DNA of 47,629 bases, from positions 1-47,629 of IMG/VR virus record IMGVR_UViG_3300037882_000242; one strand, given 5' to 3'. Source of the DNA: a virus. The notes under the pieces are model-generated. The model ran no database searches. It was not told where the DNA came from and worked only from the letters and a program-made list of their open reading frames with translations. Both the position numbers and the translations under genes were made by a program. Positions 1 through 11,415 of this stretch are shown here, in pieces (position 1 is the stretch's first letter; the number at the start of each line of letters is the position of its first letter).

Positions 1-99
1 ATCATGCTACCTTTGGGCCACATGGGCCGTGGGGAATAGTTTTGAAATATGTGTAAACTGTCTAGTGTACCTTAGTCCCCTTAGCCCCTCTTGCCTGTC
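1..99. repeat. Terminal direct repeat, left copy
   Basis: These 99 bases are repeated exactly at 47531-47629. Either the contig is circular (the assembler overlap was left in place) or the virion DNA has short terminal repeats. A length of exactly 99 is a common assembler k-mer size, which favours an overlap from a circular or circularly permuted assembly. The unique genome is then 47,530 bp. The repeat lies in the non-coding region between the divergent arms, so no gene is cut by the contig ends. Confidence 0.95.
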
Positions 100-100
100 T

Positions 101-111
101 TTTGGTATACT
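101..111 (+). promoter_or_regulatory. Candidate extended -10 promoter for the first rightward genes
   Basis: TGG followed by TATACT (106-111) forms an extended -10 element about 85 bp before the first gene. No good -35 box lies 16-18 bp upstream. The GGTATA core matches the other three promoters of this phage, which share ATGGTATAAT. It is placed where the rightward arm would have to start. This is an inference from motif and position only. Confidence 0.4.
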
Positions 112-198
112 CCCTGCCCGATCCAGTCCCTTAACGTCCTGTTAGCTTCTCCCTGCTACCTTCACCAATGGGCTATCAGAGCCCATAGGAGCGTCACC

Positions 199-372
199 AT
201 GCAGTACAAGCATATTCCCTTAGACCTGCCTGCCTATCGCCCCCTCGTTATCGGTCATCCCTCTGAGCGCGATCAGGCGATAGCCTTCAATGAGTACCTT
301 CGGACCAGAGAGACCCTGGGTATCGTTGCCAAGGTCCGGGCATATGCCAAGGTCCGGAAGGCTGACAGATGA
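199..372 (+). CDS. Hypothetical protein, 57 aa
   Basis: Small basic protein of unknown function and the first gene of the rightward arm. The ATG at 199 is chosen because AGGAG lies at 187-191, at proper spacing; an upstream in-frame ATG at 91 has no ribosome site and starts inside the terminal repeat. A hairpin (170-174 pairing with 180-184) abuts the ribosome site and may tune initiation. The stop overlaps the next start (ATGA). The C-terminal third is rich in Lys and Arg. First genes of podoviral early regions are often small host-takeover proteins, but nothing here shows that directly. Confidence 0.6.
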   Translation: MQYKHIPLDLPAYRPLVIGHPSERDQAIAFNEYLRTRETLGIVAKVRAYAKVRKADR

Positions 373-458
373 TCCTCGCGGCCTTATTTGTCGCCTATCT
401 GCGCCTAGCCTGCCTGTACCTACGGTTAGCCTTCCTCGCCTTCCTGCTGGCTGAATAA
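369..458 (+). CDS. Tiny hydrophobic peptide, 29 aa
   Basis: The ATG overlaps the stop of the previous gene (ATGA), so it is probably made by coupled translation. The product is almost entirely Leu, Ala and aromatic residues, with two Arg, and would form one membrane-spanning helix. No function is recognised. It is the first of several very small membrane peptides in the rightward arm. Confidence 0.45.
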   Translation: MILAALFVAYLRLACLYLRLAFLAFLLAE

Positions 459-469
459 TTAATCGAGTT

Positions 470-520
470 AGGGGGATTGACACGCTCGATCCCCCTCGCT
501 AGGTTAAGGGTTCGCTAACC
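470..520 (+). other. Two adjacent hairpins in an intergenic gap
   Basis: An 8-bp perfect stem (AGGGGGAT at 470-477 pairing with 489-496, loop 11) is followed by a 5-bp stem (502-506 with 516-520). No T-run follows, so this is not a classical terminator. TTGACA lies at 477-482, but the element 17 bp downstream (TAGGTT) is a poor -10, so a promoter here is only a weak possibility. The hairpins could stabilise the ends of processed transcripts. Confidence 0.4.
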
Positions 521-570
521 TGCCTTGTCCCGTTATGGGCATGGCACTAGGCTTGCAAGGGTCCGCCACT

Positions 571-906
571 ATGGCGCGTATTGGCAAACGGGAAAGGGCT
601 TTGATCGCGGCGGCTTATGCCGCGCGTAATGCCCATGTGGAGGCGACCCGCCTCTGTGCTCCCGCGCTTGCCGCCGAGGTTACACCGGGCAAATGGTCCC
701 GCATGGCGCAGACGCCTAGCCTAAACCGCGCCTATAACCCCCCAACCGAGGCGCTTACTGCGTCTGGTCGGGGTCGCGTGATGCATAACGCCCAAGGCCA
801 TGCTATGCGGGCCAAGGGCAAGGGGGTCAAGGATATCCCCGTATTTGACAATTCGGAGGCTCATGGGTCGCGCTCAACGAGCAGCGGTCTAGGTTCCCTC
901 CGCTAG
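571..906 (+). CDS. Hypothetical protein, 111 aa
   Basis: The start at ATG 571 gives an Arg/Lys-rich N-terminus followed by an Ala-rich segment; an in-frame ATG at 535 would add 12 residues, and neither has a strong ribosome site (AAGGG at 557-561 is nearest). The family is not recognised. The C-terminal part is rich in Gly, Ser and Lys and probably disordered. The stop codon is embedded in a hairpin (901-905 pairing with 910-914) that opens the structured stretch downstream. The many basic residues suggest nucleic-acid binding, but this is inference. Confidence 0.45.
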   Translation: MARIGKRERALIAAAYAARNAHVEATRLCAPALAAEVTPGKWSRMAQTPSLNRAYNPPTEALTASGRGRVMHNAQGHAMRAKGKGVKDIPVFDNSEAHGSRSTSSGLGSLR

Positions 907-1337
907 CCCTAGCGAGTATGCTAGGCCATGGTCCGCCCGTGATGAGGCGGTATCAGAGGGACCTGTTCCCGATGGTAGGTGCTAAGGGCTAGGCAATGCC
1001 CGTTAGTAGGCCAAGCTTGGCGCATGAGTAGCGCCCGGTGTAACCCAACGCGAGGCGAGGCGATAACCCAAAGGTAAATCCCGGCTGTAACCTATTGGTT
1101 ACGTGCTGCTCTAGGTTCCCCCGCGAGGGTAGGAAGAACAGCGTTTCACTGTTGCGCGTATGCGCTAGGTGATAGCCCAGTAAGGTCTGCTAATCAAGGG
1201 ATCGGAACCACATTAGGACTATCATAGTCCGAAATTAAGCCCCCTCTTTAAGCGCGCTAGGCCATACTCTACCAATGGTTAACTCGCCTGTCACAATCCC
1301 GTGACGGGTACAGCATCCATACGCGGGAGATAAACCT
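907..1337 (+). ncRNA. Hairpin-rich non-coding stretch, candidate structured RNA or leader
   Basis: There is no plausible coding frame on either strand for 430 bases. Simple stems occur throughout: 933-937 with 946-950; palindrome 1011-1020; a perfect 6-bp stem 1087-1092 with 1097-1102 (loop TATT); 1137-1141 with 1149-1153; 1216-1221 with 1225-1230; and CCCG/CGGG near 1288-1298. Several copies of GCTAGG lie in it, and the left arm of a 23-bp inverted repeat is at 1240-1262. It could be a structured RNA, an origin-like region or a long leader for the gene at 1338. No known family is recognised. Confidence 0.4.
1240..1262. repeat. Inverted repeat, left arm (23 bp, partner at 1863-1885)
   Basis: This 23-base segment is the exact reverse complement of 1863-1885. 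The two arms flank a single gene (1338-1853) symmetrically: about 75 bp before its start and 10 bp after its stop. No obvious target-site duplication lies outside the arms and no transposase is inside. The arms could pair in RNA to loop out the gene, act as recombination sites, or mark a mobile cassette. Confidence 0.85.
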
Positions 1338-1853
1338 ATGCGCGATGCAAAAGCTATCCGTCTGACTATCCGCTCGATCATCCGATCAGCGGTATCGCTA
1401 CAGTCCAAGATCGCAGCCGTTGCCTTGGAGTGCCTGGCCCATGCCGCTGAGCATGGCGATGCCACCCTTGCCAACGAACTGTATCGTGGCCTGCCTACGG
1501 GTCAACGTACGGCCTCGCTTAAGGCGTGGTTCGAAACGTACAGCCCGGTCCGTTTCCGCAACGACGAGACGAAAGGCGTCGGCCTTCTTCAGAAGGACGC
1601 CAAGGGTTACACCCCCTTTGATCTCGAAGGTGCGGAGGCTAACCCATACTACAAGGATGTCGAAACGGTGAGCAAGCCGCTCACTATGGCAGCCTTGAAG
1701 AAAATCCTGTCTTCCCTGCCTACCAAGGTGGAGAACGCGAAGAACGGGAAAGGTAAGGTTGCTATCGCTGAAGGTGAAGACGCCGACGCGATGCTTGCCT
1801 TCGCCCGTAAGGCCAGTGCTCTGGTCGATATACCGGTCGTCGGCAACGCCTAA
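1338..1853 (+). CDS. Hypothetical protein, 171 aa, framed by an inverted repeat
   Basis: ATG at 1338 is preceded by GGGAG at 1325-1329. The protein is mixed helical: an N-terminal segment with several Arg and Ile residues, a centre with aromatic residues (KAWFETYSPVRF), and a Lys/Ala-rich C-terminal helical part. It has no signal peptide or membrane segment. The pattern of a short alpha-helical body around a central Trp/Phe patch resembles small proteins encoded in early regions of other T7-like phages, but I cannot name a family. It stands alone between two non-coding structured stretches and a 23-bp inverted repeat, unlike the packed genes elsewhere. Confidence 0.65.
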   Translation: MRDAKAIRLTIRSIIRSAVSLQSKIAAVALECLAHAAEHGDATLANELYRGLPTGQRTASLKAWFETYSPVRFRNDETKGVGLLQKDAKGYTPFDLEGAEANPYYKDVETVSKPLTMAALKKILSSLPTKVENAKNGKGKVAIAEGEDADAMLAFARKASALVDIPVVGNA

Positions 1854-1862
1854 CATCTGTCT

Positions 1863-1885
1863 GCCTAGCGCGCTTAAAGAGGGGG
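1863..1885. repeat. Inverted repeat, right arm
   Basis: Exact reverse complement of 1240-1262, starting 10 bp after the stop of the gene at 1338-1853. It includes the CCTAGC motif that recurs in this end of the genome. Confidence 0.85.
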
Positions 1886-1972
1886 ACGAACCACGGAAAC
1901 CACGGTGTGTCAGTCATGCTAGCTGTCGGCTGAACACTTGATACGCATGTTAAGTTTACCCCCTCACCTTAA

Positions 1973-2047
1973 GGGAACGGTAAGCCAACAGTAGAGCTAG
2001 CTGTATTAAATCAGCCGCGATCCGGGTTCAAATCCCTGGACGTTCCC
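1973..2047 (+). ncRNA. tRNA-like fold, not a canonical tRNA
   Basis: A perfect 7-bp acceptor-like stem pairs GGGAACG (1973-1979) with CGTTCCC (2041-2047), giving a 75-nt element, the size of a tRNA. A T-arm-like segment has GGG-TTCAAAT-CCC (2024-2036) with the conserved TTC loop, but its stem has a bulged T. A middle stem GCTG/CAGC (2000-2003 with 2012-2015) carries an 8-nt loop. A D-arm-like AGC/GCT pair lies at 1983-1985 with 1996-1998. U8, the GG of the D-loop and a clear anticodon are missing. It is either a decayed tRNA or a tRNA mimic. Confidence 0.4.
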
Positions 2048-2054
2048 GCCTTAT

Positions 2055-2250
2055 GCTGCCCAAGCGCAGCGAAGAGACGCTCCCGTTGCCGCTGTACCTC
2101 TGTCATTGCGCTGATAAGGTACACATGGGCACCCTCCCCTCGGTTGGCAACGGGAGCACCTTAGCACTGGCCTTTTGCGGCTGAAGTGTAGCGTGTGTCT
2201 ACGCACGGCATTAAACTGTAGCTGACAGCCGGGAAAGACCGGCACCATTT
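2055..2250 (+). ncRNA. Nested long inverted repeats, structured RNA candidate
   Basis: Directly after the tRNA-like element there is a hairpin (2055-2059 with 2066-2070). It is followed by a perfect 12-bp inverted repeat (2079-2090 with 2146-2157) that encloses a perfect 7-bp repeat (2093-2099 with 2117-2123). A further GCCGG/CCGGC hairpin lies near 2228-2243. No coding frame fits. Together with the tRNA-like part this would make one structured transcript upstream of the gene at 2276. The function is unknown. Confidence 0.45.
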
Positions 2251-2275
2251 CAATGGACAACCAATGGAGGTAGCT

Positions 2276-2551
2276 ATGGCTGCGAAACGAAAGACACCCG
2301 CTAAGAAGGCGGTACCTAATGTCACCGTGTCGGTGACGAAGAAATACACCATACGCCCGCTGGCTGTGCCTGATTATGTGCGTACCACAAGCGGGTACTA
2401 CAGGGATGAGCCGTTGGAATATTGGATGAACGTGTATCCGAGCGGACCATTTGGTTCCTTGCATCTCAGCAAAGATGACGCAGATAAAACTGCACACGGA
2501 TCAAGGTTGCGTTGCGTCCATTTAAGAGAGGTCACCGATGAGAAAGCTTAA
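2276..2551 (+). CDS. Hypothetical protein, 91 aa
   Basis: ATG at 2276 is preceded by GGAGG (2266-2270). The N-terminus is a Lys/Ala-rich basic tail (AAKRKTPAKKA), as in nucleic-acid-binding proteins. The rest is a compact sheet-like region with Tyr and Trp. No family is recognised. The next gene starts inside this one (at 2538), so the two are probably translationally coupled. Confidence 0.6.
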   Translation: MAAKRKTPAKKAVPNVTVSVTKKYTIRPLAVPDYVRTTSGYYRDEPLEYWMNVYPSGPFGSLHLSKDDADKTAHGSRLRCVHLREVTDEKA

Positions 2552-2654
2552 CGCCTGTGTATACTGGTTGATCCGTGAGCTGACGGAGATCACGAGGTAC
2601 GCTGTGTACATGATGGTCCTCGTTGCGCTGTTGTACATGTGGATGGAGGTGTAA
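2538..2654 (+). CDS. Small membrane peptide, 38 aa
   Basis: Starts inside the end of the preceding gene, with AGAGAGG just upstream (2525-2531). The product has a short polar N-terminus with several Arg and Glu, then a hydrophobic stretch rich in Met, Val, Leu and Tyr that could span a membrane once. No function is recognised. It belongs to a string of coupled mini-genes (2276-2993). Confidence 0.5.
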   Translation: MRKLNACVYWLIRELTEITRYAVYMMVLVALLYMWMEV

Positions 2655-2655
2655 C

Positions 2656-2727
2656 ATGGGTATCCTTGCTGTCATCATCGTGACATTGGTACTCTGTATC
2701 GTGACTACCCCGAAGGAGGATGTATGA
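2656..2727 (+). CDS. Small membrane peptide, 23 aa
   Basis: ATG at 2656 follows GGAGG (2645-2649). The peptide is a single hydrophobic helix (GILAVIIVTLVLCIV) with a short charged tail. Its stop overlaps the next start (ATG at 2724). Good spacing, a strong ribosome site and the overlap make it likely real despite its length. Confidence 0.5.
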   Translation: MGILAVIIVTLVLCIVTTPKEDV

Positions 2728-2993
2728 CAAAACACCAGCCTGATACCCTCGCCACCGTTGGTCAAATGATCAGCAAAATCAAGGGCTTAGAGGAGTCTAT
2801 CAGTAAGCTGACGACTGAAGGAGGTGGAGGTGTCCACCTCTACGTGTGTCGTAAGAAGCAACTTAGTTCCTCTCGGTACGAGTATGAACCAGTGAGTTCT
2901 ATCTCTCATGTCATGGCTGTCGCTGGTATCCGTGCGGCAATCGAGAACATGAAGGCGGAGATCGAGGGCACTGGTATCTCGATTGATTGGTGA
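2724..2993 (+). CDS. Hypothetical protein, 89 aa
   Basis: A strong ribosome site AAGGAGG lies at 2713-2719. The N-terminal 35 residues form a likely amphipathic or coiled-coil helix, followed by a Gly run (GGGG), a beta-rich segment and a C-terminal helix. No known family. It overlaps the previous mini-gene by four bases. Confidence 0.6.
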   Translation: MTKHQPDTLATVGQMISKIKGLEESISKLTTEGGGGVHLYVCRKKQLSSSRYEYEPVSSISHVMAVAGIRAAIENMKAEIEGTGISIDW

Positions 2994-2996
2994 GCT

Positions 2997-3281
2997 ATGA
3001 TATACTACATCGCCCGCCGGAATAAAGCAGCCTTCACGACAGGTTACATTGCGTACTACAGGGTTGTACCCCTTGATCCTGTACATATCATACAAGCAGA
3101 CAACGGTACTCTATACGAGGGGCACCACATTTCTACGAGTTGTAAGTTTTATATCGAAAGGCACTGTAAGATACCTGTGCGTAGCTGGAAGGTGATGAAG
3201 AAGCAACGTCGCTTTCCAACCGCGTACTTGAACGCTATCAAACGGGGTGAGGTACACCCTCCCGCTAACGATGAGGACTAA
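2997..3281 (+). CDS. Hypothetical protein, 94 aa
   Basis: Starts three bases after the preceding stop. Rich in Tyr, Arg, Lys and His with an acidic tail (NDED). No signal peptide or membrane helix, and no family is recognised. The basic, aromatic composition would suit nucleic-acid contact, but this is a guess. Confidence 0.55.
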   Translation: MIYYIARRNKAAFTTGYIAYYRVVPLDPVHIIQADNGTLYEGHHISTSCKFYIERHCKIPVRSWKVMKKQRRFPTAYLNAIKRGEVHPPANDED

Positions 3282-3282
3282 G

Positions 3283-3681
3283 ATGAACAACGTCATTCGT
3301 TTCCCTCGTGGGTTCAGGTACCCGGGTGAGCATACACCTGAGGTACCCTCTGTTACCCCTGAGATAGACACCATTGAGTTCGAGGTGGATACCGAGATAC
3401 CCTCAGTAGCAGAAGAAATGGGTGCTACACCTGTTGGTGGTAAGGCCCTCGCTTACCGTGCAGTCAACCTGTTCCGCCTGATTAAGCAGCAGGGTACGAC
3501 AGAGGCACAGCGTAATAAGTTCAGGTGTGCGGCAGCGAACGCCATCTTCCAAGGACTGCGGCTGAAGCGCACTGATCCCGTTGAGTACATGCTGTACAAA
3601 GCTACCTTTGAGGCGCTATGCGAGCGACACTTCGGGAAGCAAGCAGTACAGCGGGTAGTCAGCGATAGCGTTGACGTATAG
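3283..3681 (+). CDS. Hypothetical protein, 132 aa
   Basis: ATG at 3283 sits just after the previous stop with GAGG at 3273-3276; a longer in-frame start at 3247 would overlap the preceding gene. Residues 15-50 are acidic and Pro-rich, probably disordered. Residues 55-132 are helical and basic. No family is recognised. It is the last gene before the strong promoter at 3701, so it closes the first rightward block. Confidence 0.6.
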   Translation: MNNVIRFPRGFRYPGEHTPEVPSVTPEIDTIEFEVDTEIPSVAEEMGATPVGGKALAYRAVNLFRLIKQQGTTEAQRNKFRCAAANAIFQGLRLKRTDPVEYMLYKATFEALCERHFGKQAVQRVVSDSVDV

Positions 3682-3700
3682 CGGAGAGTAACACTACCCC

Positions 3701-3729
3701 TTGACAGCTCTGGAAATCCATGGTATAAT
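3701..3729 (+). promoter_or_regulatory. Consensus sigma70 promoter
   Basis: Perfect TTGACA (3701-3706), a 17-bp spacer and perfect TATAAT (3724-3729). The -10 lies in the context CCATGGTATAATACC, shared with the promoters at 16583 and 47144. Transcription would start near 3736, about 80 nt before the next gene, and would cover the large non-coding stretch and the amidoligase cluster. Confidence 0.9.
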
Positions 3730-3768
3730 ACCTTATGGGTAAGAGGAGTAGGGGGTTAAGAGTATAAG

Positions 3769-3803
3769 GGTACATATAAGTAGCTGTATGTACCATATGT
3801 ACA
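3769..3803 (+). promoter_or_regulatory. Leader with two mutually exclusive hairpins
   Basis: A perfect 8-bp stem pairs GGTACATA (3769-3776) with TATGTACC (3787-3794). An alternative 5-bp stem pairs 3789-3793 with 3799-3803 and uses the same bases. The second hairpin ends two bases before the ribosome site GGAGG (3805-3809) of the next gene. This is the layout expected of a switch controlling translation, although no ligand or protein is indicated. Confidence 0.45.
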
Positions 3804-3814
3804 CGGAGGATGGC

Positions 3815-4333
3815 ATGAAGAAGGCTCTGGTGTATACGGCGAGCAGCGAGTACGTCCTTCTCCCGTTGCCAATGGACCCTAAGGACACTGAGGTCCAGAA
3901 GTTGTATAACTCGGTATTGTGTCAACACTTCGGTGTATACCCTAGCTCCATTGAATTCCAAGGATGCTGTGGTATGCGTATCATCAGCGGTTTTCCCTTT
4001 AAGCATTATGCTAATGTAGACGCAATGACATGGGGCGAGAAGCAGCAGCTACAGTTGAAAATCTGTAAGCCCTTTGATCCGGTGTATACCACCGCTGCCA
4101 TCCTCGTTATCGAGAAGCGGTTCATGTTGGACAAGGGTGTAACCGGTAAGCTCGGGTACTACACTTGTACTCTGAATGAGCTTCAGATTAAACAAGGGTG
4201 GGACGCCATCCTCATTAATTACTTCGGGTTCAAGCGCCTCGATGATGACTTCCATAATGTCAACAACGAGCAGAACACCAGTCGAGTTTGCTTCCTTGGT
4301 AAGCACTTCGGTAAGCCAGCTAAGGTAAGCTAA
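3815..4333 (+). CDS. Hypothetical protein, 172 aa, paralog of the 5198 gene
   Basis: The ATG at 3815 has GGAGG at 3805-3809; the upstream in-frame ATGs at 3788 and 3797 have none and fall in leader hairpins. No known family. Its C-terminal half shares a spaced pattern with the protein at 5198-5710: LN-E/D-x-Q-I/L-K, then WD-x-I/V-L, YFGF, L-x3-F-x-N and TSR. The two proteins are therefore probably paralogs. They flank a large gene-free structured stretch. No membrane segment is seen. A role linked to that RNA, or simple tandem duplication, are both possible. Confidence 0.65.
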   Translation: MKKALVYTASSEYVLLPLPMDPKDTEVQKLYNSVLCQHFGVYPSSIEFQGCCGMRIISGFPFKHYANVDAMTWGEKQQLQLKICKPFDPVYTTAAILVIEKRFMLDKGVTGKLGYYTCTLNELQIKQGWDAILINYFGFKRLDDDFHNVNNEQNTSRVCFLGKHFGKPAKVS

Positions 4334-5197
4334 TACCCTCCCGAGAGGGAGCACGTCGGCGTAGTAGCCCTACTGGGCGAAGCGGTCCGACACCAGCGTG
4401 TAGGAGTTTAATTCCTTTGAAGCGTTGGTTTATAGTTAGACTACGGGTGACGCGCCTTCGTCACGGAGCTAGGTATATTACCTGTTTGAAAGTCTAGCTT
4501 CTACTCTTTGGCCTGATGTAGACGGAGAGTTTACGCCTACTTCGATCTCTTGTTCTCTATAGGTAGTTATGTAGGGTACCACTTGTTCTCTCGAAGTCAG
4601 GATAGCCACACGCCGAGCCTTAATGGTCAGGGCAACGAAGATAACAGGTCGAGCATAGGGCTTTGGCGTCGGTATGCCAAGCTGGGAGCAGGAACCAGCG
4701 GTCTTATTGCCTCACAAGGGACTGAGGTTAACTGTCCCTACATAATTCGAACCCCTCATACAGACCCGGGCCCGACAAAGGCAGGTATGCAAGGCTGTGA
4801 GGTAGGATGTACTCGCTCAACTCGTCAGCAACGGCAGGTTTAGTTCGCTCTCCAAAGGCGAACACGATCTGTGTATAGCGGAGGGTCTTGTACATCGTGT
4901 GTGCCGGCGGTGAACCAACGCAGCACAACACGTCCACTTAGTAGTGGACACAAAGTGGGAGTGAGGTCGTCGATCTCTCACACACGGCTGAAGCCAGAGA
5001 AACTCACCAACAACACGTATTGGTGGATACATAGGGCAAGAGTAAGCCAATGCTAACCGACGAAGTTGAAGCACCGCGTGCTCACAACGCTTGAGAACCA
5101 GTGTCACAGGGGAAGAGCGACGAAAGGTTAGAGCTAGCAGGGAGGCAACCACCCCGTTGGTGGCCCGTGGCTAGCGCCAATTCAGAGAAGGTGAACC
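4334..5197 (+). ncRNA. Large hairpin-rich non-coding stretch (~860 nt), candidate giant RNA
   Basis: There is no convincing gene here in an otherwise packed genome, and short hairpins run from end to end. Examples: 4336-4340 with 4345-4349; 4355-4359 with 4387-4391 enclosing 4367-4370 with 4375-4378; 4402-4406 with 4412-4416; 4447-4452 with 4459-4464; 4467-4472 with 4494-4499; 4717-4722 with 4734-4739; 4843-4848 with 4858-4863; 4862-4868 with 4894-4900; 4932-4937 with 4944-4949; 4961-4965 with 4977-4981; 5005-5010 with 5020-5025; 5070-5074 with 5078-5082; 5149-5153 with 5159-5163 enclosed by 5133-5138 with 5170-5175. Size and phage setting recall GOLLD and ROOL RNAs, but I do not recognise their consensus. 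Expression would come from the promoter at 3701. Confidence 0.55.
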
Positions 5198-5710
5198 ATG
5201 ACGTACAAGTATACGAAAGAAGGCACGTATCAAGGGTTGTTGAAGCAGCCTCCTGTTACGAAGGATCACGCTGATCTCCTTCCTTACAAGAGTTACACCG
5301 CTGGCCTGACCCGTATCTGGTATCATAACGGTTGTGCTGTTGAGAACATCCGTTGGGAAGGACCAGAAGAGATCGGCAGGTTTCCCGCGTTCCAAGCGTA
5401 TGAACCACGTAACGCAGCCAAGCTCAGTGCCTACGTGTATCGTATCCATGAGTTGCTTACCACCCTTCAACCTATCACGAACAGCGATGGGTACCATCAG
5501 CATAACGTCGACGGGAAAGGGAAGTACCACTATCCCCGCTTTGTAACCGTTGCCCTCAATGACTACCAACTGAAGGGCGAATGGGACAGGGTGCTTACGG
5601 AATACTTCGGGTTCGTGCAGCTTGCCCCGTTGTTCTCTAACGAGGAGAGCTACGGTGATACCAGCCGTATTGGATTGTTTGGTATCTGTTGCACAAGGTA
5701 TATCGTATGA
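5198..5710 (+). CDS. Hypothetical protein, 170 aa, paralog of the 3815 gene
   Basis: ATG at 5198 follows GAGAAGG (5185-5191). The C-terminal half matches the protein at 3815-4333 in order and spacing (LND-x-QLK, WD-x-VL, YFGF, a downstream L and F-x-N, TSR). The N-terminal halves are much more diverged but share a GxFP patch. Aromatic and charged residues are frequent; there is no membrane segment. The gene lies just after the candidate large RNA and overlaps the next gene by four bases (ATGA). Function unknown. Confidence 0.65.
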   Translation: MTYKYTKEGTYQGLLKQPPVTKDHADLLPYKSYTAGLTRIWYHNGCAVENIRWEGPEEIGRFPAFQAYEPRNAAKLSAYVYRIHELLTTLQPITNSDGYHQHNVDGKGKYHYPRFVTVALNDYQLKGEWDRVLTEYFGFVQLAPLFSNEESYGDTSRIGLFGICCTRYIV

Positions 5711-5925
5711 CGTGCCCGACTTTCGAGAAGTTATGGGACAATAGCGACGAGCTAAAGCGGGCATGGGTGGATTACAACCAGCGTATGAGACCTTATGGTC
5801 CTGTCGCACCACGTTCTAATACTATATGGTGGTGGTTGTTTGCTACCTATAGTCCTGAGTTCCGCAACGCCCGCCTCGCTTTCCGCCGCCGCATGAATTG
5901 CAGCCCTGACTCGGAGACAACATAG
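5707..5925 (+). CDS. Hypothetical protein, 72 aa
   Basis: The ATG at 5707 overlaps the preceding stop (ATGA); an in-frame TTG at 5689 is a less likely start. It has a WWW cluster mid-protein and an Arg-rich C-terminal helix (RNARLAFRRRM). No known family. Tight coupling on both sides places it in the operon leading into the amidotransferase genes. Confidence 0.55.
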   Translation: MTCPTFEKLWDNSDELKRAWVDYNQRMRPYGPVAPRSNTIWWWLFATYSPEFRNARLAFRRRMNCSPDSETT

Positions 5926-6609
5926 ATGTCCGTCGCACTCCCTAAGTACAAGGATGCAGTCGTACGGGATACACTAGGGAAGTTCCCTACTGCCCCTTTC
6001 GGCTGGTACATGATGGCAGGGTACGCTTATTACCAGAAGCAGCGGCCTATCATTTCGGATGAGTGCTTCACTGAACTTGAGACGTACATCATAGCTAACT
6101 GGGATGAGATCAGGCATCCTAGTAAGACCCTCTTCAAACGGGAGGAAGTAGCTAAGGGTTCTGCTCTCGTAGATTTCAGTAAGATATCGTATCTACTAAA
6201 GACCTCAGCCCACGGTCACATAGCTACCGTGTACGTCAACGTGAAACCGGAGCGCCTTGTGCCAATACCAGTTACACCCAAGAAGATTACGCCTGCTTCT
6301 CCTTCTCCTCAGAAGGATCAAGCGAAGCATTACTTCACGACGCAGATCGTCATTGATCGTAGCCTTGTGGATGACGTGAAGACCGAGGAACTAAGCGCTA
6401 TCAATGACGTAGTGCACAAGCATGAGCATTCGTACTTCGGTGGTATGAATGTATGGGGTACCTGTTCTCTCCGTGGTCAAGCGCTGGCCCGTATGATGTC
6501 GTGTATCACAGACCTTCAAGGCATGGGGGTCAAGGTGACAAGGTACACTATGTCTGAGACGCTCATCGACAGTGCGCGTGAAGACGTTTGGAAAATACTC
6601 AAGAGGTAG
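5926..6609 (+). CDS. DNA ligase LigA-like N-terminal domain protein, 227 aa
   Basis: Residues 28-60 contain AYYQKQRPIISDECFTEL, which resembles the Ia region of NAD-dependent DNA ligases, where YY-x4-P-x-ISDAEYD-x-L contacts the nicotinamide part of NAD. The lysine adenylation motif (KxDG) of a true ligase is absent, so this is not a complete ligase. Related stand-alone domains with W-x5-HP/K patterns occur in many phages with unknown function. A Pro-rich linker (about 110-130) leads to a second, unrecognised domain (about 135-227). It precedes the amidotransferase gene by one base. Confidence 0.5.
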   Translation: MSVALPKYKDAVVRDTLGKFPTAPFGWYMMAGYAYYQKQRPIISDECFTELETYIIANWDEIRHPSKTLFKREEVAKGSALVDFSKISYLLKTSAHGHIATVYVNVKPERLVPIPVTPKKITPASPSPQKDQAKHYFTTQIVIDRSLVDDVKTEELSAINDVVHKHEHSYFGGMNVWGTCSLRGQALARMMSCITDLQGMGVKVTRYTMSETLIDSAREDVWKILKR

Positions 6610-6610
6610 T

Positions 6611-7279
6611 ATGAAGAAGCTTAACGCCTACATCATCGGCGGGGATATGTCAGTACATGCCCTGTTGTCACTTGACAAGCGGCTTAACCCTATCAACGGC
6701 GGCCGAGTGGACTTCGCTGACATGGATATCCTCGTGTATACAGGTGGTGCTGATGTACACCCTCGCTTCTACGGTGAGGAAATAGCCGGTGCTGACTGGT
6801 TGAACGAACCTCGTGATGAGTATGAGTTCGATATCTACAACAGGACAAAGGAGAAGTACCACTTTGGTATCTGTCGTGGTGCTCAGCTTCTCTGGATTGC
6901 TAACGGTGGCAAGCTGTGGCAGGATATCACGGGTCACTCCCTTCGTGGTACCCATCACATCAAGACCTTAGACGGGCAGGATATCGACGGAGTTACATCG
7001 CTACATCATCAGTGTGCAAGGGTGACCAAGGATATGCAGGCTAACGTCCTTGCGTGGGAAGAGTACCACGATCCAGTGCTCGCTGAATCACAGGATGTCA
7101 GCGCTGTTCCGTTACGCAAGGTGCCCGAAACCGTTTGGTTCCCTAAGACCCGTTGCTTCGGGGTTCAGGGACACCCTGAATACCCTCATGCCTCTCGTGC
7201 ATTCAAGAACTACACGCTTAATCATCTTCTCGATGACCCATTCACCGGCTATTATGCCACAAGTACGGAGACTATGTAA
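6611..7279 (+). CDS. Class-I glutamine amidotransferase (peptidase C26-like)
   Basis: 222 aa. The fold signature is clear: TGGADVHP near residue 44, the nucleophile elbow GICRGAQL with Cys88, and the distal catalytic pair in GHPEYP (His188, Glu190). The family either hydrolyses gamma-glutamyl bonds (the C26 gamma-glutamyl hydrolase type, which TGG-x-DVHP most resembles) or releases ammonia from glutamine for a partner enzyme. ATG at 6611 follows AGAGG, and the stop overlaps the next start (TAATG), so it is coupled to the class-II amidotransferase. In this cluster it may trim gamma-glutamyl intermediates or feed ammonia to the ligases; which one cannot be told from sequence. Confidence 0.85.
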   Translation: MKKLNAYIIGGDMSVHALLSLDKRLNPINGGRVDFADMDILVYTGGADVHPRFYGEEIAGADWLNEPRDEYEFDIYNRTKEKYHFGICRGAQLLWIANGGKLWQDITGHSLRGTHHIKTLDGQDIDGVTSLHHQCARVTKDMQANVLAWEEYHDPVLAESQDVSAVPLRKVPETVWFPKTRCFGVQGHPEYPHASRAFKNYTLNHLLDDPFTGYYATSTETM

Positions 7280-8727
7280 TGTGTGGACTCACCGGCTTCG
7301 TTGCAATGAAGCGGGACTTACCTCCCACTTCCACCTCGTTGCAGATGTTTGCCAGCATGTTCGTTATGTCTCAGCTGCGTGGCTGGGATAGCACGGGTAT
7401 CGCTGGTCTTTGGCGGCAAGCCCCGAAGTTCGGGAAGAAGGGAGCACGGAAGGGTTGGTTGTCGTTCAAAGAACGTACCTCCCCTGCTGATCTCTACCGT
7501 TTACTTGTCTGGACCTTGTACTCTAAGTACGACAAAGACGAAGAGAACCATAAGCAGTACAAGGAACCAGGGTTGTATGCTGCTATAGGGCACACAAGGG
7601 CTGCTACTCGTGGCCTAGTGAACAAGGAGAATGCTCATCCGTTCTCCTTCGGTAATAATAGGTTCATCGGTGTACACAACGGTACCGTGGATAACGCACG
7701 GCATGTGTACAAGAAGCTTCTCGAAGATGCTATCGCTCCGCTTGAGAATACAACGGAGGCCCCGAAAGATTACGCCGATGACAAGGTAGATGTCACCGAT
7801 AGTGAAATCGTCCTGTACTGCATCTACCGCTGGGGTATCAATGAGGTATACACCCGTATCTTTGGTGCGTGGGCCTTTGTATGGTACGAGCAAGAGACGG
7901 ATACGATACACTTCATCCGCAATAACCAGCGTACCCTTCACTACGCCTTCTCTGATACAGATGATACCCTCTTCTGGTCATCGGAGGAAGGTATGATGCG
8001 GTATGTATTTGCAAGAGAACGCGGTGGTGCGTGGAAAGACGGGATGCACGAGGAGTTCACGCCGAACACCCTGTATTCCTTGAACCTAGGGCGTACTGCT
8101 GCTATCCCGTATAACACCAAGGTATTCCCTTGGACCAGTAAGCGGGCTGTTGCGCAGTACAAGGCTACGAATACTAGTATGTACTCAGGGCTGCATGGTA
8201 TGTGCGGTATCGGGAATGACGATTACGATTGGGGTATGGCAAAGGACGATAAAGGAGGAGAAGCAGATGGAAAAAAGCCCGAGACTCCCTCATCTGGGTC
8301 AACTGAGAAGCAAGGAACCCTGCCTGTCATCATAGACAACCGTGCCCCGGCTAAACGGGTGTATTCTAAAAGACTACAGAAGTGGGTATCAGAAGCTGAG
8401 TACATTATCGACGTGGTTCGCTTTGGTCCAGATCGCAGCCCTCTTACTGATGATGATGGTCATAAAGATCATGAAGACCATGACACTAAAACCTGCCAGT
8501 GCATCTGGTGTTCATTCCCGATCTCCGACACAGAGGGAACAGATAAACACTCACTACAAATTGTAGGCAGCGGTACCGTTTGTGGTATCTGCGCCATGGA
8601 TTACCAATCAGTAAGCCGGATCATCGACGCATACCCCGATACCGGTGACGATGTTGAGTGGATCAAGCGGTTCACTCAACTTGAACTAAACAACAAAGAC
8701 AGGGCTAAGTTATCACAAGGAGGTTAG
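7279..8727 (+). CDS. Class-II glutamine amidotransferase with C-terminal zinc ribbon
   Basis: 482 aa. The N-terminal MCGLTGF exposes catalytic Cys2 after Met removal. The usual N-terminal-nucleophile hydrolase motifs follow: LRGWDSTG (about 33-40), GHTRAATRG (about 104-112), HNGTVDN (133-139) and TDSE (173-176). This family releases ammonia from glutamine. No synthase domain such as SIS or asparagine synthetase follows. After a low-complexity linker (about 320-345) there is a zinc-ribbon-like C-terminal part with Cys408-x2-Cys411 and Cys435-x2-Cys438. The ammonia acceptor must therefore be another protein, most likely one of the amidoligases just downstream. The start overlaps the previous stop. 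Confidence 0.88.
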   Translation: MCGLTGFVAMKRDLPPTSTSLQMFASMFVMSQLRGWDSTGIAGLWRQAPKFGKKGARKGWLSFKERTSPADLYRLLVWTLYSKYDKDEENHKQYKEPGLYAAIGHTRAATRGLVNKENAHPFSFGNNRFIGVHNGTVDNARHVYKKLLEDAIAPLENTTEAPKDYADDKVDVTDSEIVLYCIYRWGINEVYTRIFGAWAFVWYEQETDTIHFIRNNQRTLHYAFSDTDDTLFWSSEEGMMRYVFARERGGAWKDGMHEEFTPNTLYSLNLGRTAAIPYNTKVFPWTSKRAVAQYKATNTSMYSGLHGMCGIGNDDYDWGMAKDDKGGEADGKKPETPSSGSTEKQGTLPVIIDNRAPAKRVYSKRLQKWVSEAEYIIDVVRFGPDRSPLTDDDGHKDHEDHDTKTCQCIWCSFPISDTEGTDKHSLQIVGSGTVCGICAMDYQSVSRIIDAYPDTGDDVEWIKRFTQLELNNKDRAKLSQGG

Positions 8728-8728
8728 C

Positions 8729-9562
8729 TTGACCAACCTGAAGCGGACGTTTAAGATCGGGAGTGATCCCGAATTGTTCATTCACAAGGACGGTGCCTTC
8801 GTGAATGCTTACCACCATCTTGGTAAGATCGTGCATGGTACAAAGGCTGCGCCTGAATGCACCAGTTACGGTGCTATTCAGGTGGATGGTATGGCTATCG
8901 AGTTGAACACAGAGCCTACCGCTGACCCGAAGCACTTCGCTGAACTCATCAAGGCGGGGCTGATTGATACAGCTACCCGCTTCGGCGGGGTTATCTCACC
9001 AGAGAGCGTCGAGGACTTCACGATTGAGTTCCTTGAGGACCAGCACCCGTTGTCTATTGAACTCGGATGTACCCCTGATTACGATGCTTGGCGTGACGGG
9101 GCGAAGAACAAGATGCCCGATATGTTCGCTCCCTTCCGTACCGCAGGTGGTCACGTCCACATTGGATGGCGTGATGAAGGTGACGCCTACGACCGGGATC
9201 ATCTCGCTGCCTGTTGCGCCGCCGTTCGCCAGATGGATTACGTCCTCGGGCTGTGGTCGCTGGGCAAGGACACCAAGGGGGCACGCCGCCGCCAATTGTA
9301 CGGCAAGGCCGGTGCGTTCCGCCCGAAGTTCTACGGCGTGGAGTACCGGGTGCTCAGCAACTTCTGGGTCTTTGATCCTGCCCTCTGTGAAGAGGTAGTG
9401 AAGCGTACTGTTGCGGGGATGCGTCTCCTTGATGAAGCAGGAGGTGATGGTTGTGACTTCACTGAGCACTTCGGAGAAGCAGCCCGCACTGCTATCACTA
9501 CCGGAAAGGTTGATCCCGGTATTCTTGACGCTGTTGAAAGCGTTGTTCAAGCTGCAATGTAG
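8729..9562 (+). CDS. Amidoligase, phiEco32-type COOH-NH2 ligase
   Basis: 277 aa. It starts at TTG 8729, supported by a perfect AAGGAGG (8717-8723) five bases upstream. Motifs of the phage phiEco32-type ligases of the glutamine-synthetase-like fold are visible: GSDPELF near the N-terminus, QVDG-x5-E (about 50-60), RTAGGHVHIG (about 137-146) and a C-terminal RRxxYGKAG-x-FRPK with YGVEYRVLSNFW. These supply metal and ATP contacts in the family. Such enzymes are predicted to join a carboxyl and an amine using ATP, forming amide or isopeptide bonds; the substrate is unknown. It is one of two distinct amidoligases here, next to two amidotransferases and an ATP-grasp enzyme. Confidence 0.87.
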   Translation: MTNLKRTFKIGSDPELFIHKDGAFVNAYHHLGKIVHGTKAAPECTSYGAIQVDGMAIELNTEPTADPKHFAELIKAGLIDTATRFGGVISPESVEDFTIEFLEDQHPLSIELGCTPDYDAWRDGAKNKMPDMFAPFRTAGGHVHIGWRDEGDAYDRDHLAACCAAVRQMDYVLGLWSLGKDTKGARRRQLYGKAGAFRPKFYGVEYRVLSNFWVFDPALCEEVVKRTVAGMRLLDEAGGDGCDFTEHFGEAARTAITTGKVDPGILDAVESVVQAAM

Positions 9563-9570
9563 GAGAACGT

Positions 9571-10332
9571 ATGCTCCCTGAAGAGTATACAAAGGGTAAC
9601 GCCAACGATTTGACAGATCGGATTGGTAGTTCGATCATCGAGTACTGCGGTGAACCCATCTGGGTGTACACGGTTAAGGGACCTGCTAGTCCTACCGCTG
9701 TTGGTAAGATTACCCGTGCCTTTACACTCCCTAAGTGGGAACCCATCGACAATATCCCACTCGATGATCCGGGGCTTAACGTCACTGCGATGCCCTCGAA
9801 GCTCGGATACTTAAACATCGACCCTCTCACCGTGGTGTCTCTTGTCCGTATCCCGATGCGGAGTAAGACACAAGGTGTTGCCCCGAGGACTGCACTCATC
9901 AACGTAATCACTGATAAGTACCAAGGGTACACGGAGTCCCCGGTTACAGTGTTGAATAACGTACCCTCTGTAGACTTCAGCCAAGCTGTTAAGAGGCAAG
10001 GGGTATCCTCGCCTGAGTTCTTAGCATGGAGTTCGATGGTATCGAATTACGTTAACAGTTACAACTGGGCTGCCATGATGGCTAAACGGGCATTCGTGGA
10101 TGCGTACCACAATGAGTACCCCAGTGTTACGAGTGTCGCGGGTATTGAGAAACCGCATGTGACTGCTATACATCGGCGCTTCATCGTGATGCAAGACGAC
10201 TTCGGAGATCGCTTCCTTCTGTATAAAGGTAAGAAAGTGGCGAAGTTCCTGAACGATAGACTACGGTATACTCCCCAGAAGGCATACCTTTCTGGGGATG
10301 TAGAACGAGAGCTTAACATTCTACCTGTGTAG
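9571..10332 (+). CDS. Conserved-looking partner of the amidoligases, 253 aa
   Basis: ATG at 9571 has AGGAG (9561-9565). No enzyme motif is recognised. A central segment, LGYLNIDPLTVVSLVRIPMR followed by a QG pair, resembles, as far as I can recall, proteins found beside amidoligase genes in other tailed phages (pattern LGYvN, P-x-R, QG). The rest is mixed alpha/beta with a basic C-terminus. It sits between the two amidoligase genes with gaps of only 8-9 bp, so it may be a subunit, a substrate carrier or the protein that is modified. Confidence 0.5.
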   Translation: MLPEEYTKGNANDLTDRIGSSIIEYCGEPIWVYTVKGPASPTAVGKITRAFTLPKWEPIDNIPLDDPGLNVTAMPSKLGYLNIDPLTVVSLVRIPMRSKTQGVAPRTALINVITDKYQGYTESPVTVLNNVPSVDFSQAVKRQGVSSPEFLAWSSMVSNYVNSYNWAAMMAKRAFVDAYHNEYPSVTSVAGIEKPHVTAIHRRFIVMQDDFGDRFLLYKGKKVAKFLNDRLRYTPQKAYLSGDVERELNILPV

Positions 10333-10341
10333 GAGACGCAG

Positions 10342-11415
10342 ATGACTAGCTACTTAGGGCAGAAGGTGCGCTGGTTAACCCAGTTGTACCCGCAAGCCTT
10401 CGCCTTTAAGACTACGTGGAAGGCTAATGAAATCCTCGGTGTTGAGTTCGAGGTTGAAGGAACGAACCTTCCGGTGCAAGAGGACTTGACGTTCTACTGG
10501 CAGCGGGTAGAGGATAACTCCCTTCGTCCCGGGTTCGCCGGGGATGCGGCGGAGTTCGTCTTGAAGCGTCCTACTATGGTGGACTACTTCGAAGCTAAGT
10601 GTTTCCCTTACCTGATGAACAAGATCAGGGAGAAAGGTAGTACGATTGCCTTTAGCAACCGCTGCTCGACACACTTCCACGTCAGCGTCATCGACCTATT
10701 TGTGTATCAGGTCTTTGCTTATGTCGGATTGTACTACGTCCTTGAGGACTTGTTCCAGCCTATCGTGGGTGAAGTGCGGGACGGCAATCTCTTCTGCCTT
10801 GGCACGAGGCACTCGGACCTCGTTACCAATCAGCTCACCGATGCAGCCGTAGCAGGTAACTTTCAACCGTTGTTCTTCACGGAAAACAATAGGTACAGCG
10901 CAGTCAACGTCCTTGCTGTCAAGAAATACGGCACCGTTGAGTTCCGTGCTATGCAGGGTACCTTCGAGCAGGAACGTATTTTCCTTTGGATCGACATGCT
11001 TATGAGTATGCGTGAGTACGCATCTAAGCTGCAGCCCGGCCAGATGTCAGACCTTCTGACTATGATGTCCATGAAGGGCCCGGCTGCATTCGTATGCGAG
11101 GTACTAGGGGGGCCCTTGAGTAAGGGATGGAAGTATATCCTATCTAAGTACACCCCTAGACAGATTGACAAATACGTCTACAACGGTATCTCCCGTATCC
11201 AGGCATTGTTCTACGAGCCTGACTGGAAGGCGGTAAAGAAGGCTGAGGCTCCCGCGAAGACAGATGATAGACTTGTCAGGGTTAGACCCTCAGGCTTAGC
11301 AGCTTCAGCCGTACAATGGCAAACCGTTGAGTGGGATGTCACTCAGGGGGTAATGGCACAACCGACAGTACAGGTGAACAATGGTCCGAACGCGGGTCTT
11401 GACGACGGCTTCTAA
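10342..11415 (+). CDS. Amidoligase, second family member
   Basis: 357 aa, ATG at 10342 after AGGAG (10331-10335). Motifs of the bacterial amidoligase family (glutamine-synthetase-like fold) are present: GVEFEVEG (about 34-41) for the metal-binding glutamates, STHFHVSV (about 111-118) and the Tyr-rich NxYSAVNV with YGTVEFRAMQGT (about 183-215). It differs strongly from the ligase at 8729, so the two probably act on different substrates or at different steps. The C-terminal 60 residues are low-complexity and may be flexible. The next gene starts inside its end. Confidence 0.82.
   Translation: MTSYLGQKVRWLTQLYPQAFAFKTTWKANEILGVEFEVEGTNLPVQEDLTFYWQRVEDNSLRPGFAGDAAEFVLKRPTMVDYFEAKCFPYLMNKIREKGSTIAFSNRCSTHFHVSVIDLFVYQVFAYVGLYYVLEDLFQPIVGEVRDGNLFCLGTRHSDLVTNQLTDAAVAGNFQPLFFTENNRYSAVNVLAVKKYGTVEFRAMQGTFEQERIFLWIDMLMSMREYASKLQPGQMSDLLTMMSMKGPAAFVCEVLGGPLSKGWKYILSKYTPRQIDKYVYNGISRIQALFYEPDWKAVKKAEAPAKTDDRLVRVRPSGLAASAVQWQTVEWDVTQGVMAQPTVQVNNGPNAGLDDGF

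Follow-up and report, generated by a model that had tools for sequence, protein, structure and literature searches.

A candidate long structured RNA in a gene-free stretch of the early region of a Zobellviridae-like phage

A stretch of 864 nt in the early region of a phage genome carries no coding signal, lies between two paralogous genes downstream of a consensus promoter on the same strand, and contains more perfect hairpins than shuffled sequence. The window, by which we mean the whole genome record that was analyzed, comprises 47,629 bases and has a 99-bp repeat at both ends. We propose that the stretch (Table 1) may be a long untranslated segment of an early plus-strand transcript that acts as RNA, and we put the probability of this reading at about 45%; that the stretch has any function at the RNA level we place at a little under one half. 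The first-pass annotation had described it as a possible giant structured phage RNA. No discriminating test in our analysis either supports or excludes that claim, which is possible but unproven.

Scoring marks all six frames of the stretch as noncoding, and none of its open reading frames (ORFs) begins at a convincing start. Those of 60 aa or more score between -0.05 and -0.42 bits per codon, versus +0.18 to +0.32 for most of the real neighboring genes, and precisely these positions are left vacant by a second, independent method, a crude gene caller that was trained on the window itself. The ORFs have no Pfam match, and six-frame comparison with the remainder of the window and with some 180 related loci reveals no similarity. 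The initial description of some 860 bases without a plausible gene is thus confirmed by codon scores, gene calling, and similarity searches alike. A pseudogene of either flanking gene was considered and ruled out, since the stretch resembles neither. Lack of coding potential is expected of a large structured phage RNA, and the absence of coding signal over all 864 nt argues for the RNA reading.

Table 1. Features of the window and of related RNA loci. Positions with an L prefix refer to loci of other phages.
Feature	Position	Strand	Basis
Consensus sigma-70 promoter	3701..3729	+	TTGACA-17-TATAAT, 12/12 hexamer bases, TG before -10 (extended -10)
Gene A, hypothetical protein, 181 aa, paralog of B	3788..4333	+	Protein comparison
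Gene-free stretch, candidate long structured RNA, orphan	4334..5197 (864 nt)	+	Codon score, gene caller, hairpin count
5' domain, three consecutive hairpins, the first with a GAGA (GNRA) tetraloop	4334..4440	+	-42.4 kcal/mol, z -3.44 (optimistic, see text)
Possible long-range 10-bp stem, TTATGTAGGG (4567-4576) with CCCTACATAA (4736-4745)	4567..4745	+	Repeat listing, global fold
Central domain ending in hairpin GTCCACT-TAGT-AGTGGAC (4932-4949)	4800..4949	+	z -3.43 (optimistic, see text), 0/200 shuffles equally stable
3' hairpin closed by GCTAGC, 5133-5138/5170-5175	5133..5175	+	Sequence; local minimum-energy fold
Gene B, hypothetical protein, 170 aa, paralog of A	5198..5710	+	Protein comparison
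AACAGTCAAGGATAAAGACGTTAAAACCC leader motif	L103:6739, L104:2902, L132:3308, L183:3008, L197:377, L198-L204 near 401		
ICP1 RNA	L187:10098-11108	-	Gene annotation
Other ICP1-type RNA loci	L189:1511-2412; L190:1101-2160; L191:1153-2443; L192:1089-2154; L194:686-2070; L195:431-2079; L196:321-2079		

The promoter is the only site within positions 1-10000 at which all 12 hexamer bases match the consensus. As first described, it lies on the same strand about 600 bp upstream of the stretch, but it directly precedes gene A, at a distance of about 60 bp, rather than the gap. Because it adjoins gene A, a transcript would run from A through the gap into B. No terminator-like site was found on the plus strand between the promoter and gene B, nor within or just after the stretch; this, together with the location under a perfect promoter on the same strand, favors the RNA reading. 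Against the RNA reading, the stretch lacks its own promoter and does not end in a terminator, in contrast to the RNA of Vibrio phage ICP1 discussed below. The flanking proteins are paralogs, as previously suggested: they can be aligned mainly via some 46 residues near their C termini, with 41% identity over 46 aa (E = 7e-10). Gene A has neither a PHROG match nor a significant Pfam match, relatives of the two proteins are absent from PHROGs and from the phage collection, and their AlphaFold models (mean pLDDT of 39 for A and 34 for B) are too poor for use.

Eleven nonoverlapping perfect hairpins (at least 5 bp, loops of 3 to 9) occur in the stretch, versus 4.6 +/- 1.9 in dinucleotide shuffles (p = 0.002). 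The many local perfect stems of the first-pass annotation are thus real, and their excess over shuffled sequence speaks for the RNA reading. Yet the same count is reached by 4.6% of all same-size segments of the genome, and the hairpin z is equalled by 2 of 31 tested coding segments (about 6%) and by 6 of 60 gene-poor spans of relatives; the hairpin evidence is weakened because such a proportion of coding sequence of the same length scores equally high. Folded at full length, the stretch gives z values of -1.85 on the plus strand and -1.18 on the minus strand (20 shuffles), with energies of -302.7 and -282 kcal/mol, respectively. The better folding of the plus strand is in line with a functional RNA. 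The genome-wide control was run on 432-nt halves instead of the full length, and here the two halves (z of -1.2 and -1.5) do not surpass the genome mean for this length, -1.8. Energy and stem counts do not set the stretch apart from ordinary coding sequence in this genome; a folding energy that is ordinary for the genome, with a hairpin excess matched in coding sequence, argues against the RNA reading.

Two subdomains stand out. Only 1 of 200 shuffles is as stable as the 5' domain, whose minimum-energy and centroid structures coincide, and the central domain is similarly well folded; both support the RNA reading, although z values of about -3.4 are optimistic because the domains were picked partly after viewing a folding scan. 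It is the combination of these two subdomains with the missing coding signal that keeps the RNA reading alive. The remaining segments have folding z values from -1.9 to +0.1, and since most of them fold no better or only weakly better than shuffles, they weigh on the other side. A 10-bp pairing such as the long-range stem is expected by chance about 0.4 times in a stretch of this length. The enclosing stem reported near the 3' end does exist and appears in the local minimum-energy fold, but the 148-nt segment that holds it folds no better than shuffles (z of +0.14).

We found no homolog of the stretch. With the whole Rfam 15 library, cmscan returned no match at the gathering threshold anywhere in the window and only chance matches at E values up to 10 in positions 4234-5297; the library includes GOLLD, ROOL, OLE, and group I and II introns. 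The two matches to DUF805b (E = 0.72) and the Sarbecovirus 3'UTR (E = 0.24) are weak and were rejected as chance. A search with the ROOL model alone had no match in the stretch, and no positive-control genome gave a signal in it. By blastn, no homolog of the stretch was found in 50,697 phage records or in 34 related records. About 110 relatives that were fetched yielded none either; against all of these loci, nhmmer, six-frame tblastn, and blastn at sensitive settings were equally negative, as was a single-sequence covariance model of positions 4334-4502 run over 94 loci (1.7 Mb) of relatives. Relatives of the locus were also collected in IMG/VR through its proteins (A, B, their conserved C terminus, amidotransferase, primase, portal, and COOH-NH2 ligase) and in GTDB genomes through the conserved C terminus of A and B; neither route led to a homolog. 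Proteins A and B, which offer the best access to the locus, had no detectable relatives themselves. Two weak blast matches, 4412-4440 in the portal genes of relatives and 4989-5015 in a terminase-like gene adjoining the portal, were dismissed as chance. Both searches suggested in the first-pass annotation, with covariance models of GOLLD, ROOL, and other large RNAs and for homologs at the nucleotide level, thus ended without a credible match. We call the stretch an orphan because no search produced a homolog, which argues against the RNA reading.

If the stretch does act as RNA, an early plus-strand transcript would start at the promoter at 3701 and include it, and the RNA would carry a stable 5' hairpin array (4334-4440) and a stable central domain (4800-4949). 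It could then be processed to a stable species, or serve gene B as a structured spacer or leader. The single likeliest mechanism would be that of a stable early RNA whose binding partner is a protein or complex of the host or the phage, in a role comparable to that of the ICP1 RNA of about 800 nt, to which it is unrelated in sequence.

Judged from its sequence, the phage is a divergent, marine-type member of the Zobellviridae. Its portal shares about 50% identity with the portal proteins of oyster metagenome phages, Lentibacter phage ICBM2, and Vibrio phage ICP2, all Zobellviridae, and no closer relative was present in the collections searched. In the early region, positions 6572-11415 hold genes for a glutamine amidotransferase, an aminotransferase-like protein, a COOH-NH2 ligase, and an amidoligase, a cluster common to PA11-like and oyster-associated Zobellviridae. 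A 23-base exact inverted repeat (1240-1262 and 1863-1885) flanks the gene at 1338-1853 and is possibly a regulatory or recombination element.

Alternatively, the stretch may be ordinary, fast-evolving filler of the early region, consisting of untranslated spacer and of small genes that have decayed or been lost, transcribed through and without a function as RNA. We regard this as possible but doubtful. The earlier statement that genes overlap almost everywhere fails for the early region, where the same gene caller finds other weakly coding spans (373-1337 and 1854-2537) and a coding fraction of 0.83 for the genome. Such spans speak for filler, and the early regions of relatives likewise hold long gene-poor spans that are unrelated in sequence to the stretch; genome-typical folding points the same way. 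Against filler, no trace of any gene is seen in six frames, 864 nt is a long span to find in a small phage genome under selection, and the two domains beat nearly all shuffles. That the stretch represents a new class of giant phage RNA, seen in a single Zobellviridae genome and built of independent hairpin domains, with flanking paralogous early proteins that might bind the RNA, is rather unlikely.

Very short or atypical genes could also have gone unrecognized, since the early genes of phages are short and codon scores are weak for some of the ORFs here. The longest open frame on the plus strand (4550-4843) spans 97 codons, but it starts with TTG, lacks a ribosome-binding site, and scores -0.08; its internal ATGs open at most about 23 codons, and Pfam offers no match. 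A longer frame on the minus strand (4817-5152) scores -0.41. We consider missed genes improbable. An element acting as DNA, for instance an origin of replication or a site of recombination, is very improbable: the stretch does lie at about 10% of the genome length from its left end and has many inverted repeats, but it is not AT-rich, it contains no iterons or direct-repeat arrays, and its repeats are of hairpin scale.

Two observations concern gene-poor regions in other phages. In two relatives, an early region of 1.5 kb (L131:3797-5275 and L171:3353-4841) is gene-poor and shows 73% mutual identity; it contains promoter-like repeats and extended runs of conserved bases. In addition, an RNA motif of about 60 nt with a constant core of about 30 bases, AACAGTCAAGGATAAAGACGTTAAAACCC, and a covarying outer stem occurs in the early leaders of relatives from the Zobellviridae. 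It is also present where genes are sparse in Autographiviridae, in a Demerecviridae phage, and in others. Although each phage has its own sequences on the two sides of the core, these flanks pair with each other (mean duplex energy of -13.2 kcal/mol for own flanks versus -5.9 for swapped ones), and none of 10,000 permutations paired equally well. By eye, a loop GG and a downstream CCC change jointly (GG/CCC, AG/CTC, TG/CAC), which suggests a pseudoknot. The motif has no Rfam match and is absent from the window.

GOLLD and ROOL RNAs often lie near tRNA genes and form homo-oligomeric cages. Like the stretch, GOLLD is phage-borne and exceeds 800 nt, and ROOL (RF03087) is large and phage-borne; the stretch differs from both in matching neither covariance model, for GOLLD in full Rfam scans, and in lacking a tRNA island, with no tRNA in the window by ARAGORN. 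OLE RNA is large and structured, and the stretch has no match to its model either. The stretch resembles the GOLLD, ROOL, and OLE RNAs and the ICP1-type modular RNA in size and phage setting, but that it belongs to one of these families as a highly diverged member is disfavored as exceedingly improbable, since there is no credible Rfam match at E values up to 10, no tRNA nearby, and no match to the ICP1-type 3' module model (R2; cmsearch, filters off) or, by nhmmer and blastn, to nine Vibrio-phage RNA sequences.

Among the transcripts of ICP1, the most abundant is a noncoding RNA of about 800 nt from an ORF-less space of about 1 kb (PMC7567579), a precedent that favors the RNA reading. This RNA has 12 perfect hairpins versus 5.7-5.9 in shuffles (p = 0.01 against 5.9), an ordinary folding z, and a clear intrinsic terminator, and other members of its family show no hairpin excess whatever. 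Because its z is equally ordinary, a plain folding z counts neither for nor against a giant RNA; nor do folding and stem statistics refute the RNA idea, since several proven or likely giant RNAs of phages go unflagged too. Giant RNAs are identified not by the folding energy and stem counts of a single sequence but by covariation, of which the ICP1-type family is an example. The ICP1 RNA matched 126 records, and its diverged homologs in further Vibrio phages range down to the 60-80% identity band. Across the eight records examined, the RNA lies mostly in spans without annotated genes, several near tRNAs; very short ORFs are annotated over it in records 193E37-1 and F97. Segment order varies between phages, with 154-350 and 725-816 of ICP1 corresponding to 757-955 and 464-556 of henriette. 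When the 3' module is aligned across six phages, 12 of 26 pairs show compensatory changes, 97.4% of cells are paired versus 28-44% with partners slid, and the covariation score is reached by 0 of 500 shuffles. Rfam yields nothing at gathering score at these loci except tRNAs. Vibrio phages carry a module-shuffled giant RNA, outside Rfam, whose 3' module covaries strongly.

Unlike the stretch, the ICP1 RNA has been shown to be expressed, has a terminator, and covaries in its 3' module across phages, and the two share no sequence or covariance-model similarity. Both occupy a gene-free span of about 0.8-1 kb in a lytic phage, on its coding strand, both lie outside Rfam, and their hairpin excess is similar; ICP1 itself also lacks tRNAs. 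If expressed, the stretch would give the Zobellviridae an early large noncoding RNA and be a further sign that marine-type lytic phages harbor many unrelated giant RNAs.
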